From positions 1-39,694 of the IMG/VR virus record IMGVR_UViG_3300044961_000223: a DNA stretch of 39,694 nt, one strand, 5' to 3'. Made by a program: the position numbers and the translations under genes. Shown piece by piece: positions 2,024 to 39,694 of this stretch. Under the pieces are notes generated by a model. The model ran no database searches, had not been told where the DNA came from, and was given only the letters and a program-made list of their open reading frames with translations. This stretch comes from a virus. The first letter of the stretch is position 1; every line of letters begins with the position of its first letter.

Positions 2024-2305
2024 TCAACTGTCCCATATGTCGCAAATTCGCTCAAACTCTGTTATGGCCGCGCGCAACTCGACACGTAGAAGACCAGCAA
2101 TCGGGATATTGTCCAGTTCCCACAGCACAGCCTTAGCGGGGTATAGGTACTTGTGCCGCATCTCGTCCGCAGTCAGGTTTACGTCTTCTGGTGCGCCATC
2201 GTTGCGCAGTTCTGCGATAGTCGCTTCTGCTCTGTCTATCCAGAATTGATAATTCTCAATGTCATATTGTCGTTCTGTTTTCTTCTGCTTTGTTTTTGCT
2301 CTCAT
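2024..2305 (-). CDS. Small helical protein of unknown function
   Basis: A 93-residue acidic protein after a basic N-terminus (MRAKTKQKKTERQYDIENYQ). The rest looks alpha-helical, with WIDRAEATIAELRN and a C-terminal FERICDIWDS. The ATG at 2305 overlaps the stop of the DNA polymerase gene as ATGA and is preceded by GGTGGGG, so it is probably translated by coupling. The first ten residues closely resemble the start of the membrane protein at 652-1371, which may reflect a duplicated start region. No family is recognised. Confidence 0.6.
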   Translation of the reverse strand: MRAKTKQKKTERQYDIENYQFWIDRAEATIAELRNDGAPEDVNLTADEMRHKYLYPAKAVLWELDNIPIAGLLRVELRAAITEFERICDIWDS

Positions 2306-4188
2306 TTTCCCCACCTCTGCGTTATTTTCTGCTCAACTTCTAATTTCATATCCGGCGCCCAATCAGGCGCTGAGCGCATAACATCGCTTACTCGCTGCGC
2401 TATACTCTCTGCCTCGCGCGTTTTCGACTCAACGACGATCTCGTCGTAAACGTGCAGCACGACGCACACGTCATCAAACTCAAGCTGTACAAGTGCACGA
2501 CGCAATAGCTGTGCAGCAACTGCTTGCATCAGATTTTCCCACAAAAGCCCGCCGTAAATTTTTTCACGCGTTACGCCGTCCGGCGTCCAAAACAGACTGC
2601 CTTGTTCGTCCACCCCGGCGCCACGATAATACAACTCATAGCCGCTCGGCAGCGTAACGCAGACAGTGTTTTTGCCGCGACGTGAAAAGCAAAAACTGTG
2701 TGTCTCGACAGACGCGCCGTTAACTGCATCGCGAAACGCTTGCTCGACCGCAGACCAGGCGCTTGTCACGTACTTATTCGCGCTTCGCCACACTTTGACA
2801 ATCTGACGCGACATAGACTCGTTAATCGCAATGCCTGCCTGCATTTTCGCAATCGCCCCAAACTTCACATGCCCGGCCCCGTAGCCAAGCGACAGAACAG
2901 CGATTTTCGCGAGGTTATATTCTTGCGCGTCTTTTTTTGATATGGGCCGGCTAAACAGCTTTTCGCCAAAAATCAAATACTGGCTCTCGCCTGCTTCGAC
3001 ACGCTTGCGTTGCTCTGCATCACCTGAATAATAAAGCGACAAATAATTTTCAATCCCACGCCAATCTGTCGTGATGAGTTTATAGCCACGCGGCGCACAG
3101 ACCAGGCCGCGCTGCAGCGACGCAAGACCTTTTTTCGTCGGGTTTTCGAGCTGCGTTTTAAGCGTCTCTTCCCACTTGTCGCTTTCAACCGCAAACTTGT
3201 AGAAGTTGAAAAAATTCACGCCCCACGACTGCCACCGGCCCGTATGCGCGGCAGCGTAGGTCGATACATTGTAGCATCGCCCGTCGGCGGCAGTCATCTC
3301 TTTCAGCTTCGCAGCTTTGTCTACCGCACGCGTCATCAGCATTGTGCGAATGTCTAACGCTTCGCGCAGCTCAGCATTATCTGTCTCTGCGTATAGCTGA
3401 GCGAGCGTGTCAGCGCGCGCATCAGACAATTTCACGCCGTGCGTCTTTTCAAGCCACAGCAAAAACTCATCGCGACCTGAAAGCACAAGGGTGCCTGCGT
3501 CGTTGCGTCCGGCGATTTCCTCAGCACGCTTTTCCGCACGTTCAATAAAAATCTGTTCAGCGCGCAGCAGCGCGTCGACGCCTTTTAGGTCGATAGGGAC
3601 GCCGCGCGCTTGTTGTCTTTTGTCAGCCTCGAAAACCGCTTTTTCGGCATCAGAAAAACGAGGCCACAGCCGCGCGAAAATCGCAGACTCTGCCTCAACG
3701 TCATCAGCGCAGTATCGCATCCACGCCGCTTTGTCTTTTTCAGTCACAGGTAAAAAACGACCTGTTTGGCGATAGGGCACAGAATACGTCGCAATCAATC
3801 GCTTGCCGTCGGCATTTTTTTGCGCCTCTACTTTCATTAGCGCGGCAACGTTAGCCAGGCTCGACCGAGGCGCAGCGAGGCCAAATCGCCGCGACATTGC
3901 TTGCGTACAGAGCCAGCTCGACACGTCAGCAAGCCGTGTGCCTGGAAAAAAGCGCTTGAAAGCGCAGTATTCAAAAAACCAATTATGAGCAACAAAGCGA
4001 CCCTGAAATTGCAAAAGCTCATTAGGCAGACGCATCTCGTCAGTAAGCCAAACGACTTTAACAGGCTCACTATTGATTTTGTACGCGACACAAAAAAGGC
4101 CGGCCTGCGCGTCTGCAAAATAATTCACCGGCCCGCGCTCGATCGGGCAAGCAGAGAATGACTCAACGTCAACGACACAAAAACTCAT
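2302..4188 (-). CDS. polA: Family A DNA polymerase with 3'-5' exonuclease domain
   Basis: The replicative DNA polymerase of the phage, 628 residues. The N-terminal exonuclease domain has motif I as DVES (residues 7-10), motif II as VAHNWFFEYC and motif III as YCADDVEAE. The palm has motif A as TDWRGIENYL near 376, motif B in the LAKIAVLSLGYGAG segment near 435 and motif C near 580. Motif C reads HVYDEIVVE: the usual His of HDE is Tyr (codon TAC), which is unusual. There is no 5'-nuclease domain, as expected for phage enzymes. It overlaps the genes on both sides by ATGA. It lies with the ssDNA-binding protein, nuclease, SNF2 helicase and PrimPol/helicase of the same replication module. Confidence 0.93.
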   Translation of the reverse strand: MSFCVVDVESFSACPIERGPVNYFADAQAGLFCVAYKINSEPVKVVWLTDEMRLPNELLQFQGRFVAHNWFFEYCAFKRFFPGTRLADVSSWLCTQAMSRRFGLAAPRSSLANVAALMKVEAQKNADGKRLIATYSVPYRQTGRFLPVTEKDKAAWMRYCADDVEAESAIFARLWPRFSDAEKAVFEADKRQQARGVPIDLKGVDALLRAEQIFIERAEKRAEEIAGRNDAGTLVLSGRDEFLLWLEKTHGVKLSDARADTLAQLYAETDNAELREALDIRTMLMTRAVDKAAKLKEMTAADGRCYNVSTYAAAHTGRWQSWGVNFFNFYKFAVESDKWEETLKTQLENPTKKGLASLQRGLVCAPRGYKLITTDWRGIENYLSLYYSGDAEQRKRVEAGESQYLIFGEKLFSRPISKKDAQEYNLAKIAVLSLGYGAGHVKFGAIAKMQAGIAINESMSRQIVKVWRSANKYVTSAWSAVEQAFRDAVNGASVETHSFCFSRRGKNTVCVTLPSGYELYYRGAGVDEQGSLFWTPDGVTREKIYGGLLWENLMQAVAAQLLRRALVQLEFDDVCVVLHVYDEIVVESKTREAESIAQRVSDVMRSAPDWAPDMKLEVEQKITQRWGK

Positions 4189-4430
4189 TTTACCGGCCCC
4201 GCGAACAGGATCGCATCAGCATAGACAAGCTCGCCGCATCGCTCATATACAAGCGACGTGAAGACCCGCCCCGGCGCACGTCTGTGCGTCAAAAATGCAA
4301 TTGCGACAGGCTCAAAAGGCGTGCTGTGCTTGAGTGAGACAACTCCGCGCAGCTTGTAACCGCGCGCGGTCAATACGTTATTTTTGTTGACGCGCTCGGC
4401 GTCATTCGATATGCTCTCTTTGTTCTTCAT
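4185..4430 (-). CDS. Small protein of unknown function
   Basis: An 81-residue protein beginning MKNKESISNDAERV. The middle looks like a small beta domain (RGYKLRGVVSLKHSTPFEPV). A strong AGGAGA ribosome site precedes the ATG at 4430, and the stop overlaps the polymerase start as ATGA, so it probably sets polymerase translation by coupling. The 58-nt gap upstream is one of the few real gaps in the operon and holds a GC-rich hairpin. No family is recognised. Confidence 0.65.
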   Translation of the reverse strand: MKNKESISNDAERVNKNNVLTARGYKLRGVVSLKHSTPFEPVAIAFLTHRRAPGRVFTSLVYERCGELVYADAILFAGPVK

Positions 4431-4451
4431 CGGTTTCTCCTGAAGTTCATT

Positions 4452-4482
4452 GCCCGACGCTGCTACCCGCCGGGCTTTTTTT
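4452..4482 (+). terminator. GC hairpin followed by seven T on the plus strand
   Basis: GCCCG at 4452-4456 pairs with CGGGC at 4471-4475 around a 14-nt loop, followed by T 4476-4482. On the plus strand this has terminator form, although all genes here are on the minus strand. It may stop antisense transcription. On the minus strand the same hairpin sits just before a strong ribosome site and could shape the mRNA instead. Confidence 0.3.
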
Positions 4483-4488
4483 ATGCGC

Positions 4489-5253
4489 TCACCAGATCAA
4501 GTCTGGGTTAATGTCCGCTGACTCATCAGCCGCCGCCGGTTCAATGCCCGCGAAGGGGTCAAAACCGCCAATGCGCTCGCCATCGCGCACTTTACGCAGA
4601 CCGTTCAGATATGCAGTCACGCCCGCGTTGCCGTTCACTTCATAAACTGATAGTGTCAACGCAACGTCAGCATAGACGCCTGAGTAAAACTCACGCTCGA
4701 TGAAGTGCGGCTCGACTGCACGTCCGGTCGCGTCTTGCAACGCAATCGGATACTTCTCAGTGAATGCGTCGTTTTTGTTCTCGCGCATAGCAGATTTTTT
4801 CACCTGCCAGGTCAGGCAGTCAGCAAGCTCTGCACGCACCTCGCCGCGCGAGTTCGGCCGTCCGCCGTCTTTTAGCAGCGAACCCTCAACGTCAATCGCA
4901 GTCGCAGTCTTGAATATCTGCATCTTCTCAGCGCTATCGACCACTTTTTTATTCAGCGCGATTGCCTGCTTTATCGCATCAGCAAGCTGACGCTGAAAAC
5001 CCTGAGCGCCCTTTTTTGGCACTAAGATTGTCACGCTCTTTGTACCCTTGCGCCAGTCAGTTTTGTCTTCACGAAACTCTTTCACGAAAACCCACGTCAA
5101 ACGCGCATTGCGTACAACACAGCTTACGCCCTTGTCGGTCGCGCGTTGCAGAACAAGCTGCGGCGTGCCAAGCAGCGCAACTGTCGCAGAAGGCGCTGTG
5201 TCGATTTTCTCGGGCTTTGTCTCTTTCTTTGTTTTTGTCAATGTTTTACTCAT
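4489..5253 (-). CDS. Single-stranded DNA-binding protein, DUF2815-like
   Basis: A 254-residue protein with a Lys/Thr-rich N-terminal tail (MSKTLTKTKKETKPEK) and a body resembling the DUF2815 family found next to family A polymerases in phages. Visible features are VVRNARLTWVFV (about 55-66), the KKSAMRENKNDAF stretch, HFIEREFYSGVYADVALTLS near 190 and an acidic end (GFDPFAGIEP then ESADINPDLIW). Acidic tails are common in ssDNA-binding proteins and recruit partners. The start at 5253 has GAGGT 8 nt upstream; the longer frame upstream overlaps the nuclease gene and lacks a site. It follows the DUF2800-type gene directly, the usual order for these two. Confidence 0.75.
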   Translation of the reverse strand: MSKTLTKTKKETKPEKIDTAPSATVALLGTPQLVLQRATDKGVSCVVRNARLTWVFVKEFREDKTDWRKGTKSVTILVPKKGAQGFQRQLADAIKQAIALNKKVVDSAEKMQIFKTATAIDVEGSLLKDGGRPNSRGEVRAELADCLTWQVKKSAMRENKNDAFTEKYPIALQDATGRAVEPHFIEREFYSGVYADVALTLSVYEVNGNAGVTAYLNGLRKVRDGERIGGFDPFAGIEPAAADESADINPDLIW

Positions 5254-5263
5254 TGTTTTTACC

Positions 5264-6427
5264 TCACTTTTTTGTCTTCTTTTGTGCTTTTTGTTTTTCC
5301 ATGATCGCGCCAAGCACCGGCGCAATCTGAATGAATTTTTCCTCGCCATCTTCGGCGGTCAAAAAATTCCGTTCATCTACCAGGCCAACAGACAAGTTTT
5401 GTGGCTGGTACACGACAGAGCGCAGCGCGTCTCTGTCCACACCTTTCAGCTTCTCGACCTGCGCGGGGCTTTTCACTTTCGGCGCTTCATACAGTTTGTC
5501 AGGCGACAGTTTTAGTTTCTCAGCTATCTGCTCAGGTGATAACTCGCGAAACCAAGCGCGCCTGCCTGCGCTTTTCGTTAGCCCCACACCGGGCAGTTTG
5601 CCACCAAGTTCAAGATATTGCTTCGCCTCGTCGAGAATTTCGTCGAAAAACTTCTTCGCTGGCCGCGCAAGAGCAATCAGTTTTGCCCACTCAGCAGGAT
5701 TCGCTGCTAAATTGTCTTTTTTCGCAGGGTCATAATATGCGTAAATCGCCTCGCGGAACACCTTGCAGCGCGTTATCGCTGCACACGATCTGCAATGCGC
5801 GCCGACGCGATACTGCCCCTCGCGTTTTTCAAGTTCGGCAGCAAGATCGGCAAAAAAGCGCTCGTCGTAAGCGATCTCTGCATAGTCGATAATTGACAGG
5901 CGAGGCTGTATAATGACGCCGCGAATTGCGGCAGGTTTCAGTCTGTATTTCGCGCAGAACGCATGCGCGTAAATCGCAAGCTGTTCATTCTGTGCAGCAG
6001 ATACAGGCACAAAGCCAGTTTTGTAGTCGATAACGATTAGCGTATTCTCAGTGCGTGAATAGATCACGCAATCTGGCCTTGCGCTGATGCGAATGTCAGC
6101 GCTTTCGTAATCTGCATCAGACTCGAAGTAAAGCTGCGCGCCTGTCACGCTCTCACTCAGTCTCTTTACAGCATCAACGCAGAATGCGATAACAGACTCT
6201 GCATCTTCACTCGCCGCAATCACGTTTTGCGCCTCTCTGCTCAGTGTTATTGAATTGTCAAAGGCTGCATGAATTGCAGCGTGAATTGCTACCCCCTCAG
6301 CCTGCTCAGGCGTCTGAGCTTTAAGAGGGTTTTTCGCTGCTCTACTCAGCTTCTCGCTCGGCTCGCAGTATGTCCACACATACGCGCGTGACGCAGCGTA
6401 AGTTTTATTTTCGTTGTTTTTCTTCAT
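5264..6427 (-). CDS. DUF2800-family PD-(D/E)XK nuclease (Cas4/RecB-like)
   Basis: A 387-residue protein of the DUF2800 type, part of many phage replication or recombination modules. The RecB-like nuclease motifs appear in order: His in EGVAIHAAIH near residue 48, Asp in SARPDCVIY near 118, then VIDYKTG near 132 and the Q-containing NEQLAIYAHAF helix near 147. A cysteine cluster, CRSCAAITRC, follows near 208-217 as in Cas4-like enzymes that bind an Fe-S cluster. Only three of the usual four cysteines are obvious. The ATG at 6427 overlaps the previous stop as ATGA. A role in DNA-end processing together with the ssDNA-binding protein is inferred. Confidence 0.75.
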   Translation of the reverse strand: MKKNNENKTYAASRAYVWTYCEPSEKLSRAAKNPLKAQTPEQAEGVAIHAAIHAAFDNSITLSREAQNVIAASEDAESVIAFCVDAVKRLSESVTGAQLYFESDADYESADIRISARPDCVIYSRTENTLIVIDYKTGFVPVSAAQNEQLAIYAHAFCAKYRLKPAAIRGVIIQPRLSIIDYAEIAYDERFFADLAAELEKREGQYRVGAHCRSCAAITRCKVFREAIYAYYDPAKKDNLAANPAEWAKLIALARPAKKFFDEILDEAKQYLELGGKLPGVGLTKSAGRRAWFRELSPEQIAEKLKLSPDKLYEAPKVKSPAQVEKLKGVDRDALRSVVYQPQNLSVGLVDERNFLTAEDGEEKFIQIAPVLGAIMEKQKAQKKTKK

Positions 6428-7047
6428 TTTTCGTTTTCTCCATCTTCTTCTTCTTCAATCAAATGCAGAAGATACTCAATCTGCGCAGCGCGCGTTTCAA
6501 CGCAAGCGGCAGAAACAGCAAAGCGTATTGCATAATCAGCGTTTTTTCGCGCCAGCTCTGTGTTTCTTAATTTGTTCGCATGTCGACCTGGCGGCGCTAT
6601 GCGCATAGCCGATTCTGTAGCATACACTGCTGCTGATGCGACAGACTGATCAGTCGAGTCAAACGGACTATTGACCACAACGCGCAATGCGTCTGAAAAT
6701 GCAATCTTGTATTCTACCGCGCTAACTGCGCTCGGCGTATCAATTAGCTTCTTCGCGACATAACACGCACGACGCAATCTTGTATCGCCTGGGTGTGCGC
6801 TCTCATATATATGTATCACTTGTTCTGCTAATTCAATCGCGGCGCGCACTGCCTTTCGTGTTGACAAGAATATCGGTCTCGTCAACGCCCAGACTTTTTC
6901 ATCATGCGCTATCTGCGATTCAGCTATATCTCGCGCGCTCAGCGACTCGCGACCGGAAAACAGCACCTCAAGCCGCTCTCTGCCACCCGACTCAACAAGC
7001 CAGCACGGGTCTGCGTCGATCGCGTCTTGTAGCGTTGCCCGTTTCAT
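6424..7047 (-). CDS. Alpha-helical protein resembling Imm5-like 'putative immunity' proteins
   Basis: A 207-residue, nearly all-helical protein. The pattern AIELAEQVIHIYESAHPGDTR followed by alanine-rich helices (AVYATESAMRI, ADYAIRFAVSAA) and a final QIEYLLHLIEEEE resembles the Imm5-like group often called putative immunity protein in phages and bacteria. The gene at 37502-38080 shares the same layout, so the phage carries two divergent copies. It is coupled by ATGA overlap at both ends. The family assignment rests on pattern only; biochemical function is unknown. Confidence 0.5.
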   Translation of the reverse strand: MKRATLQDAIDADPCWLVESGGRERLEVLFSGRESLSARDIAESQIAHDEKVWALTRPIFLSTRKAVRAAIELAEQVIHIYESAHPGDTRLRRACYVAKKLIDTPSAVSAVEYKIAFSDALRVVVNSPFDSTDQSVASAAVYATESAMRIAPPGRHANKLRNTELARKNADYAIRFAVSAACVETRAAQIEYLLHLIEEEEDGENEK

Positions 7048-7373
7048 TTGTGGTTTTCCTTAGCTTTCGCCATACGCTCAGTACCTCGCATTAGTGCGTC
7101 GTTAAACTTCTCGCCGCCTAAATGACGAAACAAGGTCGTCAGCACTTCCTCTGCTTTCGCGAGTGCTTCGCCAATGTTGCGCGCGTCAATGTCGCGCACT
7201 TTCATGCCGCTTTTGACCTCTGACAATCGGTAACGCTTTACGCCTGCGAGTTTTGTGACAAACCACTCAGCACCGCACACGGGGTGCGGCAGCGCGTAAC
7301 CCTCGACTGTTACAATAACGTCAACGCCGTCACGGCCTGCGAGGATGTCGAACGTCTGTTTTTTGGGTTTCAT
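7044..7373 (-). CDS. Small early protein of unknown function
   Basis: A 109-residue protein starting MKPKKQTFDILAGRDGVDVI. The N-terminal half is beta-like (VIVTVEGYALPHPVCGAEWF) and the C-terminal half helical and charged (ALAKAEEVLTTLFRHL). AAGGCGGT precedes the ATG, which overlaps the stop of a 14-codon leader as ATGA. It is the first full-length gene after the early promoter at 7457-7485, so it is probably made early and in quantity. No family is recognised. Confidence 0.65.
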   Translation of the reverse strand: MKPKKQTFDILAGRDGVDVIVTVEGYALPHPVCGAEWFVTKLAGVKRYRLSEVKSGMKVRDIDARNIGEALAKAEEVLTTLFRHLGGEKFNDALMRGTERMAKAKENHK

Positions 7374-7414
7374 GCGTTGACCGCCTTTTCAATCACTATG
7401 TATATCTTTTTCAT
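7370..7414 (-). CDS. 14-residue leader peptide
   Basis: The short frame MKKIYIVIEKAVNA has a strong GGAAGG ribosome site and ends in an ATGA overlap with the next gene. It is the first reading frame on the predicted early transcript. It probably helps load ribosomes on the following gene; no stalling motif is obvious. Confidence 0.45.
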   Translation of the reverse strand: MKKIYIVIEKAVNA

Positions 7415-7432
7415 TTTCTTTTTCCTTCCTTT

Positions 7433-7450
7433 GCCGGGCATCCACCCGGC
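7433..7450 (-). promoter_or_regulatory. 5'-terminal mRNA stem-loop of the early transcript
   Basis: GCCGGG and CCCGGC form a perfect 6-bp stem with a 6-nt loop. The predicted start site of the early promoter is near 7450, so the RNA would begin almost exactly with this hairpin. Such 5' hairpins are known to slow mRNA decay; that role is inferred here. Confidence 0.5.
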
Positions 7451-7456
7451 ACGATT

Positions 7457-7485
7457 AAGATAATAAACCCCGTTCAGGGCGTCAA
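7457..7485 (-). promoter_or_regulatory. Leftward sigma70-type early promoter
   Basis: On the minus strand a -35 TTGACG (7480-7485) is separated by 17 bp from a -10 TATCTT (7457-7462), with seven A just upstream as a possible UP element. The spacer holds a small CCC-TGAAC-GGG inverted repeat. The same architecture recurs at 32550-32578. Confidence 0.65.
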
Positions 7486-7520
7486 CTTTTTTTGCGTTTT
7501 AGTGGTGGGGGTTTTGGGTG

Positions 7521-7755
7521 TCATGTCGCATCTACCGGGCGGAACCAGCGCCAGCAGTGCTTCTTTGTAGCTTCATTGTACACCTGCACTCGACGATACC
7601 CCGCCTTTTTGAGCCACGCTGCCAGGCGCTTGTCGTCGGCACGCGGGCCGGCGGCAGCGACAAAAACTGCCAGTTCGCGCACAGACACGGAATCGACAAA
7701 AAAATGGCCCTTTGCGCTTGTTGTGGGCGAGAGTAAGAAGATCGTCAAGTGTCAC
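7521..7755 (-). pseudogene. Stand-alone primase C-terminal-type module, split by an apparent +1 shift
   Basis: Two overlapping frames together encode one protein. The GTG at 7755 overlaps the previous stop (GTGA) and starts MTLDDLLTLAHNKRKGPFF. After a run of seven T (plus-strand A 7698-7704) the other frame continues VDSVSVRELAVF, then LAAWLKKAGYRRVQVY and CWRWFRP. With one T fewer the frames join into about 77 residues that align end to end with the PrimPol C-terminus, including AKQGPF against NKRKGPF and LAVWLYGRGY against LAAWLKKAGY. The cause may be a sequencing slip, a mutation or programmed +1 shifting. A TTG start at 7748 could also give the downstream frame. Likely DNA-binding, by analogy with winged-helix C-terminal domains of phage primases. 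Confidence 0.6.
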
Positions 7756-8099
7756 TGCTCAGCATACCTCGCCCGCACAAGCCGAACAAACTCTTTTTGT
7801 GATAGTTTTGTCCAGGCTCGAATATGTCTGCCGGGTGGCCAAACTTCACGGCACGTGTAGCCGTTCGATCTCAACCATTTTGTGATTTTAGGGCGCGTGA
7901 TATACTGCTTCAACGCACCTGAATTTTGGCGGGCGTATGCCAATAAAGAAGAAATCAGAAAAAACGCTTGTTGTGTCGGCGCGTTGCGCTCGCGTGCGAT
8001 AGCTGACAGATAGCTGTTTATGTCGCTTTCGCTCGGCTTGACTTTTGGCGGGCGGCCGCGTTTTTTCTTTGGCTGTGTTGTTTTTTGTTTTGATTTCAT
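7752..8099 (-). CDS. AT-hook protein with a primase C-terminal-type module
   Basis: A 115-residue protein. Residues 1-25 are basic and contain a classic AT-hook, KKKRGRPPK, which binds the minor groove of AT-rich DNA. Residues 30-115 match the last part of the PrimPol/helicase at 34171-36333: between LRSNGYTCRE...RAWTKL here and LYGRGYQNRE...RAWTKL there, 14 of 24 positions are identical. It is the first gene left of the repeat-filled control region. It starts at the ATG at 8099 and no good ribosome site is seen; longer in-frame starts enter the operator repeats and look unlikely. A role as regulator or origin-binding protein of the adjacent repeats is inferred. Confidence 0.7.
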   Translation of the reverse strand: MKSKQKTTQPKKKRGRPPKVKPSESDINSYLSAIARERNAPTQQAFFLISSLLAYARQNSGALKQYITRPKITKWLRSNGYTCREVWPPGRHIRAWTKLSQKEFVRLVRARYAEQ

Positions 8100-8183
8100 G
8101 CGCCATTTTTGTGGTGATAAAGACGACCTGTCAAGGTTTTTTTGATTTTTTCTCGAATTTTTTCGTTTCCCATGTGGGACAAA

Positions 8184-8205
8184 ATATCCCACGATCATGG
8201 GATAT
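8184..8205. promoter_or_regulatory. 22-bp inverted repeat, operator-like
   Basis: ATATCCCA and TGGGATAT are perfect 8-bp arms around a 6-bp CGATCA centre, a dimeric-protein binding site by form. It is the most symmetric site of the TCCCAC cluster and lies about 85 bp upstream of the AT-hook gene. Confidence 0.65.
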
Positions 8206-8334
8206 TCTGCTGGTTTTTAGGGTGATAAAGCGTGTTTTGGTTTTGCGCAGCGCGCAATACGCGCCTGGCGCTATGCGATAGCTTATGTTATCCCACGACA
8301 TTTTTACGATTTTCGTGTGGGCGGGATGTCAATT

Positions 8335-8363
8335 TTGATCAATAAAATCAATGGTTTTCTATA
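8335..8363 (+). promoter_or_regulatory. Candidate rightward late promoter
   Basis: TTGATC (8335-8340), a 17-bp AT-rich spacer and TCTATA (8358-8363) precede the late operon. The tandem ATCCCACATCCCAC site begins at the end of the -10 box, where a bound protein would block initiation. The match to consensus is moderate and no other candidate in the region is better. Confidence 0.4.
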
Positions 8364-8595
8364 TCCCACATCCCACTAATAAAAATAAAACTTTCCAGAG
8401 AGTATTTTTTTTTTGAGAGAGAGGGTGGCAGGCGCAGAATAAAAAAACACTCCCCCTATATGCGACCCAAAACGGGTCGTGGGATACGGGATAAACACCA
8501 CTACTTGCCCCTCGCCGCAAGGCTATTTCGCCCGAACCTCGCATCGCAGTGCGTTTTCTACTTGACGCGCGCAGAAAAACGTCTTTTTTGCGTGC

Positions 8596-9306
8596 GTGGC
8601 GTTTTTACAGGGCTTGTCCGGCCTTGGCGACTCTGTTTTTTTGTATCCAACCGCTGCGCAAGCAGCGGAGCGCGGGCATCTTACTATCGGCACGAATTAT
8701 CCGGAAGTTTTTGCCGCGCTGCCTTTTCGCGACCGCGTGTCTTTTGTTCCTTTTGCGCGGTCAAAAGTGAACGTGAGCTACACGAGACAGCGCAACTCGA
8801 ATTATTTTGAGGACTATTTGAGAAGTTCAAAGATTGAGACGCAATTTTTTTACGACGTGCAGAAACCGTCTGAAACAGTTAGCGCGATTATGTGTGAAGC
8901 ACGGAAAAGCGGTAAAATTGTTACTCTTGTTCATCCGCCTTTGCCAGCAAACATGCACGTATCGCGAGCAGATTATTCATTTGCGCCGATGCGCGAGCGT
9001 TTTGTGGAGTGGCTGAGCGCGCGCAAAGATAGAATGTATTTTATATGCGCGCAAGATGTATCTGGCTATACATTTGACGTGCGTGTTAAACTCACCTTGC
9101 CTGATTATTTGGCGCTTTGTGGCGTCGTCGATCACATCGCGAGTCAATGGGGTCATTTACTTCCTATCGCGCAGGGTTTGGGCAAAGTCTTGACTGTATT
9201 TAATCCTCGGGGGCCGCTCAGCGGTTTTGCTCGCAATCTGACGACTGAAATGTTACTTGTCAGAGAGTCGCGCCTGCGTAACCCTGCGCCGGTTTTCATA
9301 TGGTAA
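8596..9306 (+). CDS. GT9-like glycosyltransferase (short)
   Basis: A 236-residue protein with the outline of a heptosyltransferase-like (GT9) GT-B enzyme. The N-terminal LSGLGDSVFLYPTAAQAAERG has the GxGD loop and following helix, and the C-terminal VVDHIASQWGHLLPIAQGLG matches the nucleotide-sugar site where GT9 proteins have a D-x-G-x-x-H-L-A segment. It is shorter than typical GT9 enzymes (about 320-350). It starts with a GTG at 8596 and no clear ribosome site. It overlaps the methyltransferase gene and opens the late operon. The target could be virion protein or host surface sugar; sequence alone does not decide. Confidence 0.5.
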   Translation: MAFLQGLSGLGDSVFLYPTAAQAAERGHLTIGTNYPEVFAALPFRDRVSFVPFARSKVNVSYTRQRNSNYFEDYLRSSKIETQFFYDVQKPSETVSAIMCEARKSGKIVTLVHPPLPANMHVSRADYSFAPMRERFVEWLSARKDRMYFICAQDVSGYTFDVRVKLTLPDYLALCGVVDHIASQWGHLLPIAQGLGKVLTVFNPRGPLSGFARNLTTEMLLVRESRLRNPAPVFIW

Positions 9307-9965
9307 GTGATAAATGCCCTGTGTGCGAAAAGTCCGCTTTTGTTAGCTGGCCGAAAAGTCGGCTGGCTTCTTGCGGGGTCTGTTCACACGTCTGGCAACC
9401 TGATTTTCAGCAGTTCGATTACGGCGATAATTATGTCAAGAATTATGCAGACAAACCGACGCGTGAAATGGCTTTTTTGCGGCTTGGTTTTTTATCGGCA
9501 TTCTTTCTGCCGCGCGGGGCTCTGCTCGATGTCGGCGCCGGTGACGGCGCTTTTGTGCGCGTTGCGCGGCAGGCGGGGTTTGACGCTGTGGCGCATGACG
9601 TAGTGCCCCGCGCGGACGATTTACCTCGCGTAACTGAGCTTCGCGGCGATTATAGCGTCGTGACGTGCTTTGACTCTTTGGAGCACTTTGCTAATCCTCA
9701 CGAAATATTCGCCCTGCGCCCGGTTTTGTTTGTCGTAACAATACCTCACAGGCCGCGCGATTTTTCAGACGACACGGCGATGATATGGCGGCACTACAAA
9801 CCCGATGAGCATTTACACTACTTTTCTTCGCGGTCGCTCGAATTGCTTTTTCACCGTAGCGGATACGAAATCATGGGAGCGGCGCCCGTTGAAGACGCGA
9901 TACGCAAAGGCCCGACAACGCCGAACACGATGACTTACGTATTTTCACGCAAGAGGGCGACATGA
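9300..9965 (+). CDS. Zinc-ribbon SAM-dependent methyltransferase (Methyltransf_23-like)
   Basis: A 221-residue protein. A zinc ribbon with Cys6, Cys9, Cys25 and Cys28 opens it. A class I methyltransferase domain follows, with motif I LLDVGAGDGAFVRVA near residue 80 and VTCFDSLEHFANPHE near 120, the pattern of Methyltransf_23 proteins that act on sugars or small molecules. HYKPDEHLHYFSSRSLELLF is a further typical stretch. It overlaps the neighbours on both sides (ATGA at 9962-9965). A sugar O- or C-methylation role within the GT cassette is inferred. Confidence 0.7.
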   Translation: MVSDKCPVCEKSAFVSWPKSRLASCGVCSHVWQPDFQQFDYGDNYVKNYADKPTREMAFLRLGFLSAFFLPRGALLDVGAGDGAFVRVARQAGFDAVAHDVVPRADDLPRVTELRGDYSVVTCFDSLEHFANPHEIFALRPVLFVVTIPHRPRDFSDDTAMIWRHYKPDEHLHYFSSRSLELLFHRSGYEIMGAAPVEDAIRKGPTTPNTMTYVFSRKRAT

Positions 9966-11365
9966 TCGACCTTTACACGCCTTCCGGCATCGGTGATATT
10001 TATTGGGTTTTGCAAAAGCTCGCGAGGGCAGCGAACGCGGCAGGCGAGCGTTTCAGGATTCATACTCCGCCCGGTAGCGACATTAAAATGTCGCGAGGCA
10101 AGTTTTTAGAGTATATCGACTGTGTCGAGAGCGTTGCGCCTGATGGATTGCCTTATCCTGAGTTAGTCAAGCGCGCGGCGGCTGAGGGGCATTATGCTGC
10201 ATTGCGTCCGGTCATGTATTGTGAAGCAAATACATGGCTTGAAGCTGGACGGCGGCTTGAAACATATCTGCCCGCGTTTCCTACCGAGTTTATTTTAAAC
10301 TGGCAGATTGATGTTGAATCGCAGCGGCGCGCGCTCATGCATTTAAAGCCAGGCGAGAAAAACATTGTCGTGTACACGTCTGGCATTGCGAACAACGAAT
10401 CGAAATCGACGGGCACGTGGTCTGCGGCTGATTGGGTTGCAAGGGTTTCAGAGTTGCGGGCAGACCCTGAACTAAATCTGATTTGGATCGGCGCGCAATA
10501 CGATGCGGACATTTTGCCGTCGCTGCACGGGTTTTTTGATTCTGTGCTGATTGACCTGCCTGCGCCGGTTATCGTCTCGCTGCTTAGGCATTGTGACGGG
10601 TTCGTCTCGTATCAAAGCGGGTTGTCTTGCATATCAGTTATCGAATCTATACCGACACTGATGCTTTACTTTCGCAAAATTGCGGCGCTCACAAAAACCT
10701 TTAACCCGCCGACCAGCAAAGATTACCACCCGGTTTTCTTCGACGAGAAGCCCCGTTTTCGGGCGTGGGTTGACGCGTTGCCTTTGCGTCATGTTTTAGG
10801 GCGAGGCGAGGTAAAACGCGACTACACGTTTTATGTTAATGAGAACATCGAGCGCACAGAGGCCGATTGGCTCGCGAATGGTTGGATTCACGACGATCAA
10901 TATGAAAGCATAAAATATCTGTCCGGCTCTTTGCTTGAAGTTGGTTGCGGGTCAGGGTGTTTAGCGCAGCGGCTAAGCAATGTTGAATATGTGGGCGTCG
11001 ATCAATCGGCCCCGCTTTTGGATTTGGCGCGCGCGAAGAATCCGGGCAAAAAGTTTATTGTGGGTGACGTGCGCGTTTTGCCGGTTGAACATTTTGACCA
11101 TGTGTGCGCGTTTGGTTTTCTAAAACACTTTTCACTTGCGGAGCATGACGCAATTTTCGCGGCATTAGCCGTGCGCGCGCGCAAAACGCTGACGGTCGAA
11201 ATGCCCGTGCGCCCGGTTGAATATGAAGACCCGGAGCACCCTTTCCCGCACACGTGGGCGAGTGAAAAACGGATTGCGGCGAACGCGGCAAAGGCAGGTT
11301 TTGAGATCGTCGCGACGGCGGATAATCGCAGCGGCGAAAAGATTTTTCACATGGTGAGGCGTTGA
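9962..11365 (+). CDS. Fusion of GT9-like glycosyltransferase and SAM methyltransferase
   Basis: A 467-residue two-domain protein. Residues 1-280 look like a GT-B glycosyltransferase: an N-terminal PSGIGDIYWVLQKLA loop, ADWVARVSELRADPELNLIW in the middle, and CDGFVSYQSGLSCISVIESI as donor site. Residues 290-467 are a class I methyltransferase with motif I LLEVGCGSGCLAQRL, acidic VGVDQSAPLLDLA and IVGDVRVLPVEHFDHVCAFG. The start is coupled by ATGA overlap. Fusion of sugar transfer and methylation in one chain, next to separate copies of each activity, suggests one pathway adding a methylated glycan. Confidence 0.65.
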   Translation: MIDLYTPSGIGDIYWVLQKLARAANAAGERFRIHTPPGSDIKMSRGKFLEYIDCVESVAPDGLPYPELVKRAAAEGHYAALRPVMYCEANTWLEAGRRLETYLPAFPTEFILNWQIDVESQRRALMHLKPGEKNIVVYTSGIANNESKSTGTWSAADWVARVSELRADPELNLIWIGAQYDADILPSLHGFFDSVLIDLPAPVIVSLLRHCDGFVSYQSGLSCISVIESIPTLMLYFRKIAALTKTFNPPTSKDYHPVFFDEKPRFRAWVDALPLRHVLGRGEVKRDYTFYVNENIERTEADWLANGWIHDDQYESIKYLSGSLLEVGCGSGCLAQRLSNVEYVGVDQSAPLLDLARAKNPGKKFIVGDVRVLPVEHFDHVCAFGFLKHFSLAEHDAIFAALAVRARKTLTVEMPVRPVEYEDPEHPFPHTWASEKRIAANAAKAGFEIVATADNRSGEKIFHMVRR

Positions 11366-12496: not shown

Positions 12497-13042
12497 ATGA
12501 CGCAAGCGCAGTTGGCAAGAAAACTTGGCGTCACGCAACGCAGCGTCGCCGAAGCGATCGAGACAGGTCGCATCGTTTTGAACGCCGACGGCTCTTTGCC
12601 GGATGACGCAGAAAAACAATTTAATGATAACACAGACCCGGTGCGCTCGATGAACGGGCGCAAACTCGGCGGCAAAAAATCGTCTGCGGAGCCGGCGTCG
12701 TTCATGTCTGTAAAAATTAGAAAGGAGACAGCGGCAGCCCAGCTCAAAGAAATTGAACTTGCGAAAGAACGAAATAAACTTTTGGAAAAAGAAGCAGTGA
12801 AGGAAGCTGTTTTCAAATGGGCGCGGACAATACGCGATGCGGTTCTCGCAATACCCGACCGTGTAGCCGCTGACCTCGCGGCGCAAATTCTTGCGATGAA
12901 TAGCACAGGCAAAAAACTAAGCGCAAACGAAATCGAAAGAATCGTTCGCCAGGCGTGGGCGAAAGAATCGCGCGCGGTTTTAGTTGCTATCGAAAAAACG
13001 CCAAAACCAAAGAATAAAAAACGCGATGAAAGCGAAGCGTGA
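12497..13042 (+). CDS. Terminase small subunit (Nu1-like)
   Basis: A 181-residue DNA-recognition subunit of the packaging motor. The N-terminal MTQAQLARKLGVTQRSVAEA is a winged-helix/HTH as in lambda Nu1. A basic linker (GRKLGGKKSS) and long charged helices (AAAQLKEIELAKERNKLLEK) with an Arg-containing IRDAVLAIPDRVA segment follow, the usual pattern of this family. It overlaps the large-subunit start. It would bind the packaging start site on phage DNA, which was not located. Confidence 0.8.
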   Translation: MTQAQLARKLGVTQRSVAEAIETGRIVLNADGSLPDDAEKQFNDNTDPVRSMNGRKLGGKKSSAEPASFMSVKIRKETAAAQLKEIELAKERNKLLEKEAVKEAVFKWARTIRDAVLAIPDRVAADLAAQILAMNSTGKKLSANEIERIVRQAWAKESRAVLVAIEKTPKPKNKKRDESEA

Positions 13043-34170: not shown

Positions 34171-36333
34171 TCAGTACGGTATATCGTCGATTTCTTTCTT
34201 CACTTCATTTTTCAACGCGTCTAAAAACTGCGTGTGCTCTAACTTTGTCCACGCGCGCACGTGCCGCCCGTGAACATGCGCCTCGCGATTTTGGTAACCT
34301 CGTCCATAAAGCCAAACAGCTAAAGCTCTGTTCGTCGCATAGCGCGCGCATGATTGCGCGTTGAGTTCAATATGCACGTGCAGATCATGCAGCGTAAAAT
34401 ACTCACTTGCAAACGGCCCTTGTTTTGCAGCTTCGCATTCTGACAAGAAAGCTGACAGATCAGATTCTGACGCGCGCGCCAGCATTTCCCACCCCGCTGT
34501 TTTTGGCGGGCGGCGGTGCGGGTTGAACGACGATACGTCAACTGTCAGCAGATATTCTCTGACTGCCTCCGCATCGTTTTCGATCATGCGAAATAATCTG
34601 GTATAGTATTCTTGTTCGCGCGGGTCAGTGTTATTGTAGATCACAAACAAACGCCTGTCTTCACGATCACTCTTTATCGCGTCGATCTTATTCGACAGAA
34701 AAATAAAATTTGCTGCGTTCGTTGTCGTGTAAGTGCGCGCATACTTTGTTTCGACGCGCAAACGCTTCTCGCTGATTAAACTCTTAAGACGCGCCATAGC
34801 CTCTTTCTCGCCGGTCTCGACCTCGTGCGCGACGACCCATAATTTTTCAGCAAGATAGTCATTGTATTTCGATAGCAAATCGTGTGACATCACGTGTGAT
34901 ACGTTCTGCTCGCCGCAAATACGTGCCAAAAACTCAGCAAAAAACGACTTCCCGACGCCGGTTTTAGGCGTGATAATCAGCGGCGACCACATAATCTTTT
35001 TACCAGGGTTTTGCAAAGCGTAAGCAAAAAACTGTAAGAGCGTCTGTTCTTCTTGTTCACTTGTCGTAATGTAAGCAATATGCTCACGAAAAATTTTTAC
35101 TGCCTCTTTCGCGCGCTCAGATTCCGGGTCAACTGGCGCAAGCTCAGGTGCGCGGTAAGCGTTGTAGTATGTCACCCCGCCGCGCACAAAGATTTTCTCT
35201 GTCATGTCAGGCGCATAGTCTAACTCATCGACAGTATTCACCGCCCCGGCAGCGATCAAATCGGCAAAATCAATACGCTCGCCAAGCTGCGAAATCAGAT
35301 ACAAATTGATTTGTTCAATAGATGTCAGAACGCGCGTCGTCGTCGTATCGAGCAGACGAACAGCGCTGTGGCAATAGACCCACGCACTTAGAAGCTCGCG
35401 CGCGCGGTTTATTAGCTCAAACTTCCTCAGCTCTTTCTGTCTCTGCTTGTCTGTGAGCGATTCGCTTTTTCGCAACAAATCGCCAAAATCGCCGCGACGA
35501 TACTTAAAAGCAGACGCTATCTGATGCTTTATGACTTTTTCGCTCTCAGGCGGTTCGTGGCGCAGATCACTGATTCGCTGCGCAAGTGCTACTGCGTCGC
35601 TTTCAGGCACGCCCCACGCATGGCAGTCAAGCCCGATGAAAAAAAGTTCCTGCGAGCGGCCATCGCTCGCGACGCGCACAGGCTTTTTTGAGTACAGAGC
35701 AAAAAGATAGTCAACGATGCTATTCACACGTTGCGGCGCCTGGGCCGGCGGTTGCGAAATTAAAGCAGATAAAAAAGCAAAACGCTGCTCGAAGCTGACG
35801 CGCTCTGTCTGCTCGCGGACATAGACAATTTCATAACCAGGCGACCTAACTCCGTTTTTCCGGTGCGAAAAATCCGGCAAACGGGCGACGCGCGCGCTAT
35901 CGTGTGCAGCACGCTCTTTTGACTGCGTAAGCGTCAATAACTGCTTAACGACCGCAGAGTAAGACGCTTTGTTCGTTTCGTTCTCGTCGCGCGGCTCAAA
36001 AACAAAATAAAGGTGATGGTGCGTGCTATCGCGCGAGCAGATTATGTCAGCGTGTTCGTGCGCCCAAACGGGCAGTGCTGCATTATCAATGTCAACAAAT
36101 ACAGTTTGCTGTCTCGCGACATTGCCTTTTTTGTCGCGTGGGTTTACGCCCGCGCAAGGGTACAACTGCGCGTCGAGTACAATATCGCGCATTTGCGCAA
36201 GCGTGTCGCGTGCTGCGTCTATGCCTGAGCACAATTTTTTGAGCGGCCTGGCAGCGGCGCCGCGCTCTGGCAGAAAGCGTAATTCTATTATGTCGTCAGG
36301 AAAGAAAAGATATGAGAGCAGATCAGCGTTCAT
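34171..36333 (-). CDS. PrimPol-SF3 helicase fusion (primase-helicase)
   Basis: A 720-residue replication initiator. The N-terminal archaeo-eukaryotic primase/PrimPol domain has FVDIDN near residue 80, SRDSTHHHLYF near 100 and HDSARVARLPDFSHRKNG near 145. The superfamily 3 helicase has Walker A ITPKTGVGKSFF near 457, LWVVAHEVETGE near 495, motif C NFIFLSNK near 544 and the arginine pair DREDRR near 557. The design resembles the NrS-1 phage primase-polymerase. The last 90 residues (about 625-715) form a module repeated in two separate small proteins at 7.5-8.1 kb. GAGGA precedes the ATG at 36333. Confidence 0.88.
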   Translation of the reverse strand: MNADLLSYLFFPDDIIELRFLPERGAAARPLKKLCSGIDAARDTLAQMRDIVLDAQLYPCAGVNPRDKKGNVARQQTVFVDIDNAALPVWAHEHADIICSRDSTHHHLYFVFEPRDENETNKASYSAVVKQLLTLTQSKERAAHDSARVARLPDFSHRKNGVRSPGYEIVYVREQTERVSFEQRFAFLSALISQPPAQAPQRVNSIVDYLFALYSKKPVRVASDGRSQELFFIGLDCHAWGVPESDAVALAQRISDLRHEPPESEKVIKHQIASAFKYRRGDFGDLLRKSESLTDKQRQKELRKFELINRARELLSAWVYCHSAVRLLDTTTTRVLTSIEQINLYLISQLGERIDFADLIAAGAVNTVDELDYAPDMTEKIFVRGGVTYYNAYRAPELAPVDPESERAKEAVKIFREHIAYITTSEQEEQTLLQFFAYALQNPGKKIMWSPLIITPKTGVGKSFFAEFLARICGEQNVSHVMSHDLLSKYNDYLAEKLWVVAHEVETGEKEAMARLKSLISEKRLRVETKYARTYTTTNAANFIFLSNKIDAIKSDREDRRLFVIYNNTDPREQEYYTRLFRMIENDAEAVREYLLTVDVSSFNPHRRPPKTAGWEMLARASESDLSAFLSECEAAKQGPFASEYFTLHDLHVHIELNAQSCARYATNRALAVWLYGRGYQNREAHVHGRHVRAWTKLEHTQFLDALKNEVKKEIDDIPY

Positions 36334-36550
36334 ATTTCCTCGCAAAAAATGTCGCGTTTCGCTTAACATACAATTCATTCGCTATGAAAAATGGACACTT
36401 CATGCCAAAACCCTGCATGCATAATGGAGTAGCGATCCATTTTGGTGGTGACATCCAACTTTGTCCATCTGGCTTTGGGGGGATGGTAAACCTCATGCAC
36501 ACATCACGTACATGACACGATTCGCCAGTGCACTTTGTTATATCAGCCAT
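36323..36550 (-). CDS. Small Cys-rich phage protein
   Basis: A 75-residue protein starting MADITKCTGESCHVRDVCMR. Cys7, Cys12 and Cys18 plus two later Cys (LCMQGFGMKC) follow a pattern I recall from short conserved phage proteins, probably a single zinc or Fe-S site. It overlaps the start of the PrimPol gene by 11 bp. Function unknown. Confidence 0.6.
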   Translation of the reverse strand: MADITKCTGESCHVRDVCMRFTIPPKPDGQSWMSPPKWIATPLCMQGFGMKCPFFIANELYVKRNATFFARKYER

Positions 36551-39415: not shown

Positions 39416-39694
39416 TTACGCCTCGAAGACAAAAAGTTTTTCGACTCTGTAGCTGGTCGGGCCCCGCGCGTCCGTGTTATGAAATACTGTTTTTCCCCAC
39501 ACCGCACGCCATTGCGCCGGCGCGACATAACTTGACACGAACACATGAACGCCCCGCCGCGCCTGACGTTCTGCCCACAGCCAAAATTCAGCGTGACTAA
39601 ACTTTTGGCCTTTATAGCCCGTCGTGTTTTCATACGGCGGATCGCAGTAAAGCACTGCGCCTTTTGGCACTTTTACGCTGCGATAATCGGCGCA
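39416..39694 (-). CDS. dam: DNA adenine methylase (Dam family), C-terminal part
   Basis: The frame enters from the right edge with CADYRSVKVPKGAVLYCDPP and continues YENTTGYKGQKFSHAEFWLW. DPPY is the catalytic motif IV of amino-methyltransferases and F-x-H-x-x-F/W is typical of Dam. A final SYVAPAQWRAVW, then RVEKLFVFEA closes the protein at a TAA (39416). Together with 1-292 it makes one enzyme; the target-recognition stretch between them is absent from the window. Confidence 0.85.
   Translation of the reverse strand, partial: CADYRSVKVPKGAVLYCDPPYENTTGYKGQKFSHAEFWLWAERQARRGVHVFVSSYVAPAQWRAVWGKTVFHNTDARGPTSYRVEKLFVFEA

Follow-up and report, generated by a model that had tools for sequence, protein, structure and literature searches.

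A TCCCAC-type repeat array between divergent gene blocks of a tailed-phage genome: candidate iteron origin or operator

The array of short repeats at 8168–8493 in virus record IMGVR_UViG_3300044961_000223 has, in our judgement, about an even chance of being an iteron-type replication origin, one that probably doubles as a divergent regulatory region or operator. The neighbouring gene encodes, as a separate protein, a copy of the predicted DNA-binding end of the candidate replication initiator, so the cluster most likely serves as a start site for replication, as a control switch or in both roles. A sequence-only reading of this DNA had proposed an origin or a switch operator, and both halves of that proposal are still live. 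They are favoured by the initiator-domain paralogue next door and by a similar layout in phages with related primases, whereas the support drawn from GC skew, from an adjoining AT-rich tract and from a late promoter proved weak.

RESULTS

Organisation of the genome record

The window, meaning the whole stretch of DNA that was analysed, is the entire virus record of 39,694 bases and has the gene content of a tailed phage. The array lies in the long non-coding gap where the leftward replication genes and the rightward structural genes diverge. The blocks and genes referred to below are as follows.

8.6 kb to ~32 kb, + strand: structural block (GpA-type terminase, portal, head protease, major head protein, tape measure)
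8.1 kb to ~33.2 kb, running leftwards across the record ends, − strand: replication block (DUF2800 exonuclease, Enc34-type SSB, family A polymerase, SNF2-like helicase, VirE/DUF5906 primase-helicase)
7752–8099, − strand: gene for a 115-aa protein, the first gene left of the array, with an AT-hook-like tail (KKKRGRPPK) and a winged-helix domain; the ORF can be extended to an ATG at 8198
2302–7373, − strand: remaining leftward replication genes near the array (family A DNA polymerase, Enc34-type ssDNA-binding protein, DUF2800 exonuclease, small genes)
8596–9306, + strand: first rightward (structural-block) gene, on the other flank of the array
34171–36378, − strand: VirE/DUF5906 (D5/SaPI-Rep-like) primase-helicase, candidate initiator; residues ~620–719 form the predicted winged-helix domain common with 7752–8099

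A gene that we read as encoding a Dam-like methyltransferase is cut by the record ends (1–300 and 39574–39694). Its N- and C-terminal parts lie at opposite ends and their frames do not join, which makes a circular map with a small gap probable. This suggests that the genome is nearly complete and circular or permuted, with a short gap at the ends; distances measured through the ends depend on the assumed circular map. Neither Rfam matches nor tRNA genes were found in the 39,694-base window. The three genes heading the structural block (8596–11365) resemble enzymes of sugar- or methyl-transferase type, one of them with a PHROG methyltransferase match, and their placement ahead of the terminase is unusual. 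Within the replication block, 1368–2045 encodes a protein with about ten short, pentapeptide-like repeats of the GDLTGVW type.

Anatomy of the repeat array

The elements of the array, with the AT-rich tract and the promoter match discussed further below, are listed here in map order.

8105–8134, − strand: sigma70-like match TTGACA-N18-AAAAAT just upstream of the ATG at 8099 (pattern match only)
8168–8205, no strand assigned: left cluster, comprising the imperfect palindrome TTCCCATGTGGGA and then the inverted repeat ATATCCCA-CGATCA-TGGGATAT; four TCCCA sites on alternating strands
8184–8205: the inverted repeat of that cluster, with 8-bp arms, ATATCCCA-N6-TGGGATAT
8289–8298, + strand: lone site TATCCCACGA
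8320–8328, − strand: degenerate site CATCCCGCC, its edge overlapped by a − strand TTGACA hexamer (~8336–8327)
8362–8376, + strand: tandem iteron pair TATCCCACATCCCAC, 7-bp pitch
8375–8414, no strand assigned: AT-rich tract, candidate melting (DUE-like) element; 82.5% AT, equal highest among the 40-mers of the record
8461–8481, no strand assigned: small hairpin CGACCC-N5-GGGTCG, ending at the right-hand inverted tandem pair
8478–8493, − strand: inverted tandem pair TATCCCGTATCCCACG, 7-bp pitch, one unit degenerate

The inverted repeat with 8-bp arms had been described before and is present. The two tandem pairs of opposite orientation and 7-bp pitch were also described; the pair at 8363–8376 is exact (ATCCCACATCCCAC) but that at 8479–8492, which reads ATCCCGT-ATCCCAC on the − strand, contains one degenerate unit. 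The arms 8362–8376 and 8479–8493 are 87% complementary and are separated by 102 nt. Regular pitch is confined to within the pairs. Iteron origins carry short direct repeats of regular pitch in non-coding DNA, and here these take the form of the two 7-bp-pitch pairs with further sites around them. The region is gene-free, as had been stated, if the winged-helix gene starts at 8099, but with a start at the ATG further upstream, at 8198, the gene would run into the leftmost sites.

At least six sites with the ATCCCAC core had been counted in the array. Five are exact (of six in the window), and the others are only variants, all on the − strand: GTCCCAC at 8174–8180, ATCCCAT at 8197–8203 and ATCCCG at 8322 and 8487. 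The dense TCCCAC-type array is nevertheless real, and its sites are not equally common elsewhere. All five TATCCCA occurrences of the record fall inside it (between 8185 and 8486), as do six of the eight ATCCCA occurrences (within 8168–8493) and 6 of the 13 TCCCAC occurrences in the window (8174–8484). Within 8100–8595, six TCCCAC were observed against a mean of 0.14 in local dinucleotide shuffles and five ATCCCAC against a mean of 0.04; none of the 2000 shuffles reached either count. When any motif was allowed, by taking the commonest non-simple 7-mer of each shuffle, five copies were reached in 3 of 2000. A position weight matrix built from the array sites placed the seven top-scoring sites of the record in the array, which is partly so by construction.

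The best non-coding 7-mer cluster in the first 20 kb of the window served as the benchmark for comparison with other viral loci, and a cluster at least as strong was present in 18 of 117 of them (~15%). At this frequency there is nothing unusual in a phage having a repeat array as such, and the case therefore rests on the surroundings of the array. Arrays at promoters or operators would look like this one.

A free-standing copy of the primase-helicase C-terminal domain

The 115-aa protein encoded at 7752–8099 matches the C-terminus of the primase-helicase by BLASTP (E = 3e-17) and by tblastn (33% identity over 97 aa, 5e-15), and by this similarity it is a paralogue of that C-terminal domain. 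The motif GRH[IV]RAWTKL, which corresponds to the predicted wing, is kept in both. The predicted recognition helices differ, RPKITKWLRSN in one and NRALAVWLYGR in the other, with only WL in common (2 of 11 residues); the paralogues could thus recognise different sites. In AlphaFold models (mean pLDDT 77), both domains have the order helix-helix-helix-strand-wing-strand. Structure comparison of both returned mostly winged-helix DNA-binding proteins as best matches, with middling Z scores (≤ 7.5), and Foldseek gave no match at E ≤ 0.001, only the common winged-helix arrangement. The KKKRGRPPK tail at the N-terminus of the free-standing protein matches Pfam AT_hook below the cut-off.

The helicase part of the candidate initiator matches DUF5906 (4.8e-19) and PDB chain 6k9c, named 'Primase' (4.8e-14), which we take to be SaPI5 Rep. 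On these matches it belongs with the D5/SaPI-Rep-type helicases. Relatives of the primase-helicase are found in 283 records of the phage collection, and distant phage primases show a recognisable C-terminal motif. No free-standing paralogue of the C-terminal domain was detected in other primase loci (35 + 10 loci with partial flanks, at the sensitivity of BLAST). In the window, no comparable repeat array accompanies the primase-helicase gene itself, at 33.1–34.2 or 36.3–36.7 kb.

Scans for relatives used the primase, the winged-helix alignment, the polymerase, the terminase, two primase alignments, the iteron pattern, and the terminase with the WO alignment. Among the viral and genome contigs scanned, no record had both the replication module and the array, and no close relative was found. 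A blastn search of 7000–9500 against phages gave no match, nor did a tblastn search with the 7752–8099 protein. Exact TATCCCACATCCCAC occurs at 31 loci in viral contigs, none of which encodes relatives of the window proteins tested; two other clusters, in L045 and L046, look unrelated.

AT-rich tract, GC skew and promoter matches

An AT-rich tract beside the array had been noted at 8130–8167. It is AT-rich (72.5% over 8130–8169) but weaker than the tract at 8375–8414, which abuts the tandem pair at 8362–8376 and lies between the two opposite pairs, supplying a candidate for the adjacent AT-rich melting element expected of an iteron origin. GC skew had been suggested as a check, and a flip was indeed seen at ~8 kb, but the coding strand switches at the same place, and at third codon positions, read on the coding strand, the skew does not change sign between the two arms. 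Gene orientation thus confounds the flip, and GC skew was rejected as independent evidence for an origin.

One tandem pair had been said to cover the candidate late promoter. This was not supported: the sole + strand sigma70-like match in the array (8413–8440, 9/12) is covered by neither pair. On the − strand, a start from the match at 8105–8134 would make a nearly leaderless mRNA. A 17-bp direct repeat (− strand CTTTATCACC..AAAAA, 88%) at 8105–8123 and 8213–8231 precedes both candidate starts of the winged-helix gene (8099 and 8198), and these are the only exact copies of CTTTATCACC.

Sites lying over divergent promoters, beside the gene for a DNA-binding regulator, would be expected of a divergent phage operator of the lambda-switch type. 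Here a regulator-like gene adjoins the array and the promoter matches are weak. It is possible, though we consider it clearly short of probable, that the array is an operator only, in which the winged-helix protein of 7752–8099 or another phage regulator controls divergent promoters through TATCCCAC sites while replication starts elsewhere. The position of the array, at the divergence of the gene blocks and beside a gene for a small predicted DNA-binding protein, is that of many autoregulated phage repressors. The inverted repeat ATATCCCA-N6-TGGGATAT would suit a dimeric regulator, and there is the TTGACA-type match just upstream of the ATG at 8099. However, the candidate regulator is akin to a replication initiator and not to a known repressor family, and the strongest sites overlap no good promoter match. 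Moreover, inverted pairs of 7-bp pitch flanking an AT-rich tract are more like an origin than like a simple operator.

Other functions for the array

The repeats might instead be small-terminase binding sites in a packaging region (cos or pac), given the terminase of the lambda GpA kind, its small subunit with an HTH, and the long non-coding gap that holds the array. This is improbable. The repeats are not next to the small terminase gene, whose start at 12497 is 4 kb from them, and the 130-bp gap directly before that gene, the usual place, has no repeat array. Furthermore, none of 80 loci with related terminases carries a comparable motif cluster, the maximum being four ATCCCA at one locus.

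The idea that the repeats bind a host regulator, or are the DnaA boxes of a host-type origin, has still less to recommend it. TTATCCCAC is superficially like the DnaA box TTATCCACA, but the consensus TTWTNCACA occurs once in the window (11343) and never in the array, where a DnaA-dependent oriC would have several boxes.

Least credible is that the array serves recombination in a temperate phage, as integrase arm-type sites or otherwise. The arms of attP typically mix short direct and inverted sites, and comparable AGTCACG sites in contigs L074 and L075 flank an apparent tRNA gene end. The window has no tRNA gene, however, and the gene scan identified neither an integrase nor a recombinase, in a record with open ends and with some small ORFs outside the scan. 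The L074 and L075 sites (AGTCACG/GCGTGAC, direct and inverted, at L074:12372–12670 and L075:12936–13235) are probable integrase arm-type sites and, flanking an apparent tRNA gene end, were left out of the origin evidence.

DISCUSSION

A model for the array

If the array is an iteron-type origin with a regulatory role, TATCCCAC would be the half-site of the winged-helix domain present both at the C-terminus of the 34171–36378 product and in the 7752–8099 protein. The primase-helicase would bind the opposite 7-bp-pitch pairs around 8375–8414, melt the AT-rich tract between them and load to begin synthesis in both directions, together with the phage polymerase and SSB. The free-standing domain may occupy the same kind of sites, where it would most likely repress its own leftward operon and, by competing with the initiator, act as a brake on replication.

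Against this model stand the distance of ~11 kb between array and helicase gene, the differing recognition helices and the ~15% of loci with arrays at least as strong. The most specific version is tentative, and we hold it to be rather unlikely as a whole: an origin-binding domain was duplicated and freed, with an AT-hook-like tail, beside the origin, and it acts on the same iterons as both a replication brake and an early/late transcription switch, so that paralogous initiator and repressor compete for one array. A free-standing paralogue of the initiator domain in this position would couple replication to transcription, which is directly testable. Should the array be an origin, it also offers a concrete layout, inverted pairs of 7-bp pitch around an AT tract, to be sought in other relatives of the primase-helicase.

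Comparison with known systems

No paper on iteron origins for relatives of VirE/DUF5906 primase-helicases was found in the open-access literature. A comparable layout is present in Roseobacter phage RDJL3 and five viral contigs (the set L002, L008–L011 and L023), which have a related VirE-type primase-helicase. These carry a tandem pair AGTCAA[AT]AGTCAAA, again of 7-bp pitch, ~2 kb downstream of the primase gene and, in the annotated RDJL3 record, in a 660-bp non-coding gap. The pair is invariant in all six records while much of the flank varies; five of the records also have inverted AGTCAAA copies close by, and an AT-rich stretch adjoins the pair. The differences from the array described here are the site sequence, the closeness to the primase gene and the lack of a detected C-terminal-domain paralogue. 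Judged from this conservation, constraint acts on such layouts in phages that have an initiator of this kind, although an origin role is not thereby proven. A search of the literature found no experimental origin mapping for RDJL3-like phages. The AGTCAAA array (L002:9228–9410 and its counterparts in the other five) stands as a second, conserved candidate origin. A 7-bp GTGTGGA array in L010 and an array in L026 lie within long ORFs and were set aside.

SaPI Rep is reported to recognise iterons through its C-terminal domain; binding by the SCCmec protein Cch2 requires direct repeats, and its C-terminal domain on its own binds specifically to the putative origin (PMC7581432). The helicase of the phage is of this D5/SaPI-Rep type, and a likely iteron-binding domain is thus encoded both in the initiator and beside the array. 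The likeness consists of a D5/Primase_Cterm-type helicase with a C-terminal domain, here a predicted winged helix with putative DNA binding, and of short direct repeats as the (putative) origin. SaPI and SCCmec elements have their origin immediately downstream of the helicase gene, whereas the phage array is ~11 kb from that gene on the circularised map, and the motif is AAGTG there but ATCCCAC here. We found no description of a free-standing C-terminal-domain copy in SaPI or SCCmec, while the phage array adjoins one. Because of its position the array is not classed with the SaPI/SCCmec kind, but it may well work like them.

Two further systems bear on the pairing of a long and a short protein. 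The alpha protein of satellite phage P4 is a multifunctional primase, helicase and origin-recognition protein. P4 has both the alpha gene and the cnr copy-number control gene (PMC8628076). P4 combines a multifunctional replication protein and a small replication-control protein in one element, as is proposed here for the phage.

Cnr is not, to our knowledge, a paralogue of the alpha DNA-binding domain. In papillomaviruses, E2 and the truncated E2 repressors have a common DNA-binding domain, and the short form competes with the replication and transcription protein for the same sites. Papillomaviruses are eukaryotic viruses whose short form comes from the same gene, whereas the phage has a diverged separate gene, but in both a DNA-binding domain is common to a long and a short protein.
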